A stretch of DNA of 5,893 nucleotides from an uncultured Clostridium sp. (lineage in GTDB: Bacteria > Bacillota > Clostridia > Clostridiales > Clostridiaceae), in contig CAMNZV010000116.1 of NCBI GenBank assembly GCA_946575275.1, forward strand, positions 1-5,893, written 5' to 3'. The translations under genes were made by a program, and so were the position numbers. Under the pieces are notes generated by a model that saw only the letters and a program-made list of their open reading frames with translations, searched no databases and had not been told where the DNA came from. Position 1 is the stretch's first letter; every line of letters begins with the position of its first letter. This document shows positions 3,684 through 5,893 of this stretch, in pieces.

Positions 3684-3689
3684 GAGGTG
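3684..3689 (+). promoter_or_regulatory. Ribosome binding site that decides the hflX start
   Basis: GAGGTG lies 6 nt before TTG at 3696-3698. The in-frame GTG at 3687-3689 is part of this Shine-Dalgarno sequence and so cannot be the start. The same AGGTGAATAT string precedes the yunB ATG at nearly the same distance, which supports the reading. Confidence 0.85.
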
Positions 3690-3695
3690 AATATT

Positions 3696-5489
3696 TTGAT
3701 AAATGGAAATATTGATGGAATTAAGAAAAGTTTCTTAGAGGAACTTGAAAATATAAATAATATAAAAACTGATAAAGATGAAATTTGTAATATTTCAATT
3801 GCTAATATTATGGTAAGAATCTCCACTTTAATTGATAGGGAAATAAGTGTGGCTATTGATAGAAAGGGAAAGGTCCATTCTGTTGCAGTTGGTGATTCTA
3901 CATCTGTTGAATTGCCTTTAATTGATATTAAGGAGCAAAAACTTTCTGGAATTAGAATAATCCATACTCATCCTAATGGATATTCAAATCTTTCGGCTTT
4001 AGATTTGTCAGCACTATTAAAACTAAAGCTAGATGCAATTGTGGCTATTGGAATTTTAGGTGGGAATATAATTGACACTTCAATTGCAACTTTAATGGTT
4101 CATAATGACATACTAATAACTGAAGAAAAGGGCAAACTATCCATAGAGGAATTATTAAAGTTTAACCTTAAAGAACAAATAAAGCATATTGAAATACTAA
4201 TTAATGAAAATGATATTATTGAAGATGATAGTGAAAAGGCAATTATAGTTGGTTCTGATACAAAAGAAAGCTTAGTTGAACTTAAGGAACTTGCAAGTGC
4301 CTGTAATATACCAGTTCTAAATATGATTTTTCAAAGTAGAGCTAAAATAGATCCAGCCTTTTTTATAGGAAAGGGTAAGGTATTTGAAATTGCGGCTTTA
4401 AGGCAAACCTTAAAAGCTAATATAATTATTTTTGATGATGAATTGTCAGGTTCTCAGGTTAGAAACTTAGAAAATGCAATTGGAGCAAAGGTTATTGATA
4501 GAACAACATTAATCTTAGAGATATTTGCAAGAAGAGCCAAATCAAAAGAAGCTAAAATTCAAGTTGAATTAGCTCAATTAAGATATCGAAAATCTAGACT
4601 ACAAGGACTTGGAACTGTACTTTCAAGAACAGGTGGAGGTATTGGAACAAGGGGGCCAGGTGAAAAAAAGCTAGAAACAGATAGAAGGCATATAGAAGAT
4701 ACTATAAATGATTTAAATAAAGAATTAAAAAAGATAAAAAAAGTTAGGGAAGTTCAAAGAGGCAAAAGAACAAAAGAAAATATACCAAAGGTATCCTTAG
4801 TTGGATATACTAATGCAGGTAAATCTACTTTGAGAAATAATATGTGTGAAGCAGCTGCAATAGATGCAAAAGATAAAGAAAGAGTTTTTGAGGCAGATAT
4901 GTTATTTGCAACATTAGATGTTACTACAAGGGCAATAAGACTTAAGAACAAAGGGATTGTCACATTAACAGATACAGTAGGATTTATTAGAAAACTTCCC
5001 CATGATTTGGTAGAGGCATTTAAGTCTACCTTAGAAGAGGTGGTATATTCAGACTTGTTATGTCATGTTGTTGATATATCTTCAAATACAGCTAGTGAAG
5101 AAATAAAGGCTGTTGAATTAGTTTTAGGGGAACTTGGGACACTAAGTAAAAAAACCATTTTAGTTTTAAACAAAATAGATAAAGCATCAGAAAGTCAATT
5201 AAATGAAATTAAGGATAACCTTCATTATGAAAAGATAATAGAAATATCTGCAACAGAAGGTCTAAACTTAGATGTCTTACTAGAATTAATTGAAGAAAAC
5301 TTACCTTATAGTATGAATAAATTTGAAGTATTAGTCCCTTATGATAGAGGTGATATTGTTTCAATGATACATAGAAGCAGTAGAGTAATTGAAGAAGAAT
5401 ACAGAGATGAAGGAACCTTCCTATTAGTTGAGGCAAAAGATGAAATTTACAATAAATCAAAGGACTTTTTACTTAAGAAAATAAATTAA
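3696..5489 (+). CDS. hflX: Long-form GTPase HflX with an N-terminal JAMM-like domain
   Basis: This is a 597-residue protein starting at TTG (numbering from there). HflX GTPases bind the 50S subunit and dissociate stalled or stressed ribosomes. The HflX N-terminal domain spans about 182-270 (IGKGKVFEI, FDDELSGSQVRNLE). A helical linker of about 273-360 contains the Gly-rich TGGGIGTRGPGEKKLE loop and RRHIE. The G domain has G1 GYTNAGKS (370-377), switch I ATLD with Thr406, G3 DTVG (426-429), G4 NKID (492-495) and G5 SAT (518-520). A C-terminal domain of about 542-597 closes the protein. All GTPase motifs look intact. Classical HflX is about 420 residues; the extra 180 or so lie at the N-terminus. 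There Glu49 and H90-T-H92-P-N-G, then Ser100 and Asp103, form the JAMM/MPN+ pattern (H-x-H-x7-S-x-x-D), with the HPxG context of RadC. HflX identity is very sure; the JAMM fold is inferred from the motif. Confidence 0.96.
   Translation: MINGNIDGIKKSFLEELENINNIKTDKDEICNISIANIMVRISTLIDREISVAIDRKGKVHSVAVGDSTSVELPLIDIKEQKLSGIRIIHTHPNGYSNLSALDLSALLKLKLDAIVAIGILGGNIIDTSIATLMVHNDILITEEKGKLSIEELLKFNLKEQIKHIEILINENDIIEDDSEKAIIVGSDTKESLVELKELASACNIPVLNMIFQSRAKIDPAFFIGKGKVFEIAALRQTLKANIIIFDDELSGSQVRNLENAIGAKVIDRTTLILEIFARRAKSKEAKIQVELAQLRYRKSRLQGLGTVLSRTGGGIGTRGPGEKKLETDRRHIEDTINDLNKELKKIKKVREVQRGKRTKENIPKVSLVGYTNAGKSTLRNNMCEAAAIDAKDKERVFEADMLFATLDVTTRAIRLKNKGIVTLTDTVGFIRKLPHDLVEAFKSTLEEVVYSDLLCHVVDISSNTASEEIKAVELVLGELGTLSKKTILVLNKIDKASESQLNEIKDNLHYEKIIEISATEGLNLDVLLELIEENLPYSMNKFEVLVPYDRGDIVSMIHRSSRVIEEEYRDEGTFLLVEAKDEIYNKSKDFLLKKIN
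3774..4121 (+). other. JAMM/MPN+-like domain within HflX
   Basis: Residues of about 27-142 (TTG numbering) carry a RadC-like arrangement. A strand with Glu49 in REISVAID is followed by KGKVHSVAVGD. The strand IRII then leads into H90-T-H92-P-N-G, with Ser100 and Asp103 at the canonical spacing, followed by the helix LSALLKLK and the strand DAIVAIGI. In known JAMM domains the two His and the Asp bind zinc, the Glu activates water and the Ser stabilises the intermediate. All five are present here. The domain boundaries are estimates by eye and no metal binding or protease activity is shown. Confidence 0.7.
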
Positions 5490-5507
5490 AGTTTAAGGAT
5501 GATAATA

Positions 5508-5893
5508 ATGAATAATACAGTGGAAATGTTTCAAAAAGCCTTTCAATCATCATTAAAAACCTTAAAGCGTAATAAAAAGGTTTTAAGCATATTAACCTTT
5601 GGCAGTGTGGTATCTGGAGACGTGTGGGAAGAATCGGATATAGATTTATTTGTAGTATACAATGATGATTTTCATGAAATTAGAGATGTTTTTTCTTTAA
5701 TTGAAAAGATACCTGTACATACAAGGATTATTTCAAAACAAAGATTTATGGAAATATATGAAAGTGAGGATAAAAAATCTTACATAATAGATATTTTATC
5801 TAAGTCTAAGCTTGTATATAGTAATGATGAAGAAATTACAAATGTATATAATAAATTCGCATATGTAAAAAACTCTAAAGTATTAGGATTAAA
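5508..5893 (+). CDS. Nucleotidyltransferase-fold protein, N-terminal part (3' end outside window)
   Basis: 128 complete codons are visible before the window ends. The N-terminal domain has the minimal nucleotidyltransferase (DNA polymerase beta-like) signature: FGSVVSGD at 31-38, with Gly32-Ser33, then SDIDLFVV at 43-50, giving acids Asp44 and Asp46. Such domains transfer a nucleotide to a protein, RNA or small molecule, or occur as antitoxins of HEPN/MNT pairs; the substrate cannot be told. The next predicted strand (PVHTRIIS, 69-76) shows no obvious third catalytic acid. From about 110 a new helical segment begins, possibly a second domain. ATG 5508 has AAGGA (5495-5499) 8 nt upstream; an in-frame ATG at 5499 overlaps that site and is less likely. 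Only 18 nt separate it from hflX and no terminator lies between, so the two are probably co-transcribed. Confidence 0.85.
   Translation, partial: MNNTVEMFQKAFQSSLKTLKRNKKVLSILTFGSVVSGDVWEESDIDLFVVYNDDFHEIRDVFSLIEKIPVHTRIISKQRFMEIYESEDKKSYIIDILSKSKLVYSNDEEITNVYNKFAYVKNSKVLGL

Follow-up and report, generated by a model that had tools for sequence, protein, structure and literature searches.

A predicted JAMM-type domain joined to the ribosome-splitting GTPase HflX in Bacillota

In passages of PMC6912228 and PMC12493154, HflX is described as attaching to the interface side of the 50S subunit, with the effect that ribosomes are split or blocked; in the former, 100S ribosomes are reported to be split by it as well, and in the latter it appears as a stress-time ribosome splitter linked to the antibiotic response. 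We analyzed a stretch of 5,893 nucleotides (the window; bases 1-5893 of contig C116, from a source genome that is 71% complete and in 327 contigs), which encodes a long form of HflX. This protein shares the ND1, helical, GTPase and C-terminal parts of HflX/HflXr (TIGR03156) and has about 178 extra N-terminal residues, in which a sequence-only reading of the window had seen a domain resembling the JAMM/MPN+ metalloproteases. With members of that group (AfJAMM, P. furiosus JAMM1, AMSH/Sst2, Rpn11 and CSN5) the domain has in common the motif and the predicted order of strands and helices; it differs in being joined to a ribosomal GTPase, in that no ubiquitin partner was seen and in that its activity is a prediction. 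With RadC and Prok-JAB it shares profile similarity and motif spacing, having H-T-H-P-x-G in place of the H-N-H-P-S-G of the RadC proteins compared.

Extensions of HflX have been described before. The mycobacterial protein carries one of 39-58 aa which also lies directly before ND1 and is too short for a JAMM domain; according to a passage of PMC12493154, it contacts uL16 and helix 38 of the 23S rRNA and extends as far as the H69-H71 junction. The same review, from 2025, mentions that several species of Clostridium and Paenibacillus have N-terminal extensions too; its section on HflX extensions does not state their nature, and the word JAB is absent from the review. In passages of PMC1779556, which deals with ubiquitin-like and JAB proteins of prokaryotes, neither HflX nor RadC is mentioned, and a word search of the open-licence literature found no description of a JAMM, JAB or isopeptidase activity on HflX. 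HflX and JAMM proteins are each known; within that literature, their fusion was not found. We regard the arrangement as a new architecture in which HflX is linked to a separate JAMM-type family that the current Pfam families do not include.

The N-terminal domain and conservation of its motif

The window frame is a complete HflX with an ordinary core plus an N-terminal domain: it scores 455.1 bits against the TIGR03156 GTP_HflX equivalog model (cut-off 216.75), its full-length model resembles Listeria HflXr 8a57 (Foldseek E 7.8e-40, 42% identity), and its nearest named proteins come from Clostridiales and Clostridium. No Pfam or NCBIfam model claims the roughly 178 N-terminal residues, and the precomputed Pfam annotation of 256 homologues holds no JAB accession among the matches listed. 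Counting from the TTG at 3696, E49, H90-T91-H92, S100 and D103 fit the JAMM pattern EXnHS/THX7SXXD (as given in a passage of PMC300881), the middle Thr included, and a translation of the window in all six frames contains H-x-H-x7-S-x-x-D a single time. The sequence-only reading had placed the domain at 3774-4121, which covers the core; the domain itself runs over about 3696-4180/4229.

All five motif residues (E49, H90, H92, S100 and D103) are kept in 120/120 close homologues (best 120 of 1336) and in 134 of 136 further homologues, the other two being gapped at the Glu column. We then compared HflX loci, leaving out L001 (a copy of L002) and L144 (which is without HflX). With the window included, the motif is complete in 138/143 loci: 82/82 in a near set, comprising 80 loci of named genomes, the window itself and a genome from the same family, and 56/61 in a far set, found in a whole-genome scan with a Clostridium-only profile (A1). 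The near set is biased, its 80 named loci having been found with patterns that hold the His pair or the Glu.

A sample of 398 genomes of the same phylum was scanned with A1 and then with A2, a diverse profile of 41 rows. The A2 scan gave 73 HflX proteins with the domain, which fall into strong matches (E <= 1.2e-35; n=60), all five residues being present in 60/60 (the 56 complete far loci, L002, L003, G051 and G118), and weak ones (E 2.4e-24 to 1.9e-10; n=13), with an intact metal site in 0/13. Since the score itself draws on the motif columns, there is some circularity in this division, but erosion affects entire families: five proteins in f49, seven in f92 and one (G177) in f99. The first His is lost in all 13. 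The f49 proteins have no His at all in the motif position; those of f92 have lost H-x-H but retain Glu and Ser, and their final motif position is occupied by Asp or Glu, the state of the second His being alignment-dependent in f92 and G177. When each family is weighted once and two eroded families are left out (58 rows, 25 families), 9 of 178 columns are invariant, namely E49, G58, G66, H90, T91, H92, P93, S100 and D103; once the eroded families are added back (63 rows, 27 families), the five motif residues all remain within the top eleven columns. The conservation of the metal-site residues is thus well supported, and a chance motif is ruled out by its conservation in homologues, loci and 25 families. 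The five residues proposed from the window alone are confirmed, and they are retained together in 60/73 long-form proteins rather than lost in most of them.

The eroded sites are found at loci L139-L142 and L153, L143 and L154-L159, and L261. A further eroded form may be represented by the HflX of G150 (L152), which has about 205 N-terminal residues and matches the domain profile at just 13 bits.

Relation to JAMM families in profile and predicted fold

Searched against PDB sequences, A1 found nothing, while A2 gave 23 rows, of which the best 14 are AMSH-family JAMM proteases, seven others Prp8 and two unrelated. Scanned singly at E <= 1, 25 of 41 diverse members are matched by Prok-JAB (best 1.1e-4) and 16 of 41 by RadC (best 4.7e-4), so that a JAB hit, sought to check the sequence-only reading, was obtained. 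In profile-profile comparison with hhalign, A2 aligned with 25 RadC proteins at a probability of 94 (E 1.3e-7, 84 columns), E49 falling on the Glu of ‘REH’; against 29 Prok-JAB proteins it reached 31.8%, and against eight control clusters, one of which is by eye a reverse-strand frame and no real family, at most 0.69%. For the window domain, no RadC (PF04002; cut-off 22.1 bits) match was listed, and it reads H-T-H-P-N-G where H-N-H-P-S-G was looked for. Membership in the Pfam-defined RadC or Prok-JAB family is rejected, since the curated cut-offs are not reached.

The predicted structure agrees with these relations. The AlphaFold2 model of the domain has a pLDDT of 92.0 and a pTM of 0.88, and its best structural matches (VIA-align, model residues 26-163) are JAMM/MPN structures, deubiquitinases among them; the DNA deaminase DddB is a further match. 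Identities over the listed matches are 3-18%. The modeled JAMM fold is well supported. Both the profile relation to AMSH and RadC and the predicted fold, which aligns best to JAMM/MPN structures, thus bear out the proposal of a JAMM-like domain fused to HflX.

Below the HflX proteins, the next matches of A2 in the genomes start at E 1.1e-4 and lie mostly in frames of 230-260 codons. Among them, G005:C10 is RadC (identified by a RadC gene search that spanned 41 genomes), and those in G093, G100, G131, G134 and G143 lie at sites that match Prok-JAB. Separate RadC genes were present in 41/41 genomes searched, the window's own included. A length-limited A2 search for standalone relatives returned 348 proteins, the best 120 of which span 134-339 aa; most of the named ones among these 120 are called ‘GTPase HflX’, often ‘partial’, and a few ‘hypothetical protein’. 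A third protein search yielded just 16 hits.

Some single cases depart from this picture. P0198, encoded on a contig of 1,127 bases, joins the domain in one frame to the DNA-binding domain PF00486 and may be a chimaera. In P0129 (Caloramator, 2.6 Mb contig) a 235 aa ‘hypothetical protein’ consists of the domain plus the first part of HflX, probably through a frameshift or assembly error. A match in G300 from the first genome scan is a chance hit inside a frame that by eye resembles peptidyl-tRNA hydrolase. In G089, residues 1-42 of the domain profile are matched about 1.9 kb upstream of HflX (G089:C1:2541504-2541629), and the HflX frame itself matches only from residue 39, perhaps owing to an insertion, a rearranged hflX start or chance. 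RadC-like matches within frames of 855 and 830 codons (G040:C13:67648-67872 and G009:C24:115402-115500) are possible other JAB fusions.

Distribution, ancestry and gene neighborhood

HflX (PF13167) was found in 306/398 genomes, of which only two have more than one copy (table read by eye), and the HflX-bearing genomes comprise about 20% with a complete site (60/306) and 4% with an eroded one (13). The domain sits on a protein that is the sole HflX in nearly all sampled genomes. Clostridium beijerinckii has the long-form gene as well (L063). In a tree of the HflX core built from 112 proteins (a quick method without bootstrap, midpoint-rooted, with L004 left out for its length), the complete, eroded and short forms fall into few blocks, with 8 label changes vs 39.7 after shuffling; the domain may have had a single origin. 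Several distant genomes share the gene order mutL, miaA, hfq, spoVK-like, hflX and methionine-gamma-lyase-like. Among 25 loci, with genes named by eye, mutL and miaA occur in 5/25, four of which also have hfq, and the lyase-like gene in 11/25. This is the usual place of hflX in Bacillus, an indication that the proteins with the domain are orthologous HflX. Together, these observations suggest that the domain was gained early and then lost or eroded several times. In Bacillota it has the appearance of an ancient component of HflX that has been passed on mostly by vertical descent.

In the window, hflX is followed directly by a nucleotidyltransferase gene (Table 1), as is also the case in 2/4 named Clostridium loci examined (L033 and L101); in L077 a short nucleotidyltransferase-related frame lies farther from hflX. 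In family f59, the HflX frame (L265:1-2217, + strand) runs without a stop into a region that by eye resembles tRNA-dihydrouridine synthase, a possible HflX-Dus fusion; the L265 frame has about 740 codons, and those of four other f59 genomes 740-830.

Table 1. Features of the window and of its long-form HflX
Feature	Position	Strand	Remarks
HflX long form, 597 aa	3696..5489	+	TTG start; GTP-bdg_N, GTP-bdg_M and MMR_HSR1 present
Likely ribosome-binding site GAGGTG	3684..3689	+	Six bases 5' of the TTG; read off the sequence
N-terminal domain, residues 1-178	3696..4229	+	AlphaFold2 model; JAMM-like core about residues 27-160
E49, predicted catalytic Glu	3840..3842	+	Kept in 60/60 strong-hit genomes; aligned to Glu of RadC ‘REH’
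H90-T91-H92, predicted zinc ligands (H-S/T-H)	3963..3971	+	H90 3963-3965, H92 3969-3971; invariant over 25 non-eroded families
S100 of the JAMM pattern	3993..3995	+	Conservation
D103, predicted third zinc ligand	4002..4004	+	Conservation
HflX ND1 (GTP-bdg_N)	4266..4529	+	Adjoins the JAMM-like domain; PF13167 E 4.8e-32
Nucleotidyltransferase gene, start only	5499-5891	+	Directly 3' of hflX
Penicillin-binding protein gene	in window	-	
Spore protein gene yunB	in window	+	

Possible roles at the ribosome

Because the complete site is under strong constraint, it is most simply read as that of a zinc peptidase or isopeptidase whose target would be a protein of the uL16/H38/H69-H71 region. We consider it rather probable that the domain is such a zinc-dependent enzyme, carried by HflX to the ribosomal subunit interface, where it would cleave a ribosome-associated protein. 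Zinc binding and hydrolysis of a peptide or isopeptide bond are both predicted from the motif and the modeled fold, and a substrate at the ribosome is suggested by analogy. HflX would dock in the interface via ND1, splitting or blocking the 70S, and since the mycobacterial extension has the same tether point, a JAMM head attached before ND1 would lie near uL16, helix 38 and H69-H71. As the most likely substrate we would propose a protein or tail that stalled or hibernating ribosomes carry in this region; cleavage would accompany stress-time splitting or take place during hibernation. For splitting as such the domain is probably dispensable, because short and eroded forms exist. The metal site, in which the sequence-only reading had seen the role of the domain, is intact in 60 proteins; f49, f92 and f99 keep the domain without an intact site, so that part of its role in them must be something other than this catalysis.

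Several results weigh against this reading. The window reaches only 13.7 bits against Prok-JAB (PF14464; cut-off 25 bits), and across 149 genomes the highest-scoring HflX frame has 24.2 bits, also under the cut-off. With A1, hhalign gave 4.1% for RadC and 2.8% for Prok-JAB, with one control also at 4.1%, and hence no signal above control; the rows of A2 had each been picked for a complete motif. Masking the five motif residues lowered the RadC match to 14.6% (E 0.0018, score 25.9), a score still above those of 40 column-shuffled profiles (highest 19.7), and masking the block 90-103 together with E49 abolished it. The sequence evidence therefore comes largely from the region of the motif, from which the predicted fold is the more independent; there, the VIA Z values are below 8, a level that VIA calls common, and Foldseek found no PDB match to the JAMM-like domain at E <= 1e-3. 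Most sampled HflX proteins are without the domain and the site is eroded in three families; HflX can therefore function without it. With 73 cases in 398 genomes, the domain is not peculiar to this genome. Finally, the neighbors shared among the 25 loci hint at no substrate or ubiquitin-like partner.

Other explanations have to be weighed against the same evidence. A JAMM-fold docking module, that is, a pseudoenzyme that binds a ribosomal protein or factor and aids HflX binding or splitting without catalysis, would be in keeping with the many MPN domains that are scaffolds and with the three families in which the domain can evidently serve without an intact metal site. The mycobacterial extension, too, works by rRNA contact (passage of PMC12493154). 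However, E, H, H, S and D would be superfluous for a dock, and the complete site, present in 60/60 strong-hit genomes, is the most conserved feature of the domain over 25 families; we therefore regard pure docking as unlikely. Quite unlikely, in our view, is a RadC-like metal hydrolase that acts on rRNA, tRNA or a signal (nucleic acid, nucleotide or small amide) instead of protein. RadC is the strongest profile-profile match and its function is, to our knowledge, not settled; HflX contacts rRNA, and DddB is among the structural matches. Yet the best PDB sequence matches are AMSH peptidases, which have H-T-H-P where the RadC proteins compared have H-N-H-P, and known JAMM enzymes are mostly peptidases or isopeptidases.

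The prominence of AMSH-family deubiquitinases as best PDB sequence matches, and of deubiquitinases among the best structural ones, could also mean that the domain acts in the manner of Rpn11 and AMSH, which remove ubiquitin, and strips nascent chains or ribosomal proteins of a ubiquitin-like modifier. We find this very improbable, as no ubiquitin-like protein, E1 or E2 was recognized in the gene clusters common to at least 3 of the 25 loci, and we know of no ubiquitin-like system that tags ribosomes in these bacteria. An N-terminal extension of unrelated origin that bears the motif by accident has next to no probability: the window alone matches Prok-JAB at E 0.06, level with the unrelated DUF3929, but the conservation, profile, structure and RadC comparisons all contradict this view.

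As for particular substrates of the proposed peptidase, long HPF is present in 193/199 genomes and in 34/35 of those with a complete site; being nearly universal, it cannot discriminate a link to hibernation, which is suggestive only. The Prp protease trims bL27, and a replacement of Prp by the domain is rejected, as Prp occurs in 29/35 complete-site genomes vs 133/164 others (199 genomes, Fisher p = 1; counts sorted by hand, with genomes not among the listed matches taken as negative).

More tentatively, and with the odds somewhat against it, HflX in much of Bacillota may be a two-headed ribosome-quality-control machine, in which a splitting or guarding GTPase is combined with a JAMM protease that clips a defined interface protein, candidate targets being a hibernation factor, the tail of a ribosomal protein in the vicinity of uL16 or a peptide that has stayed behind on the large subunit. 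If true, this would represent a new kind of ribosome-tethered JAMM enzyme, spread over at least 25 families, and it predicts a directly testable proteolytic step at the ribosome, for which the short, active-site and eroded forms offer a natural comparison within one protein. In about a fifth of the HflX-bearing genomes sampled (60/306), a complete and strictly conserved JAMM-like site on HflX goes uncalled by the Pfam and NCBIfam models.
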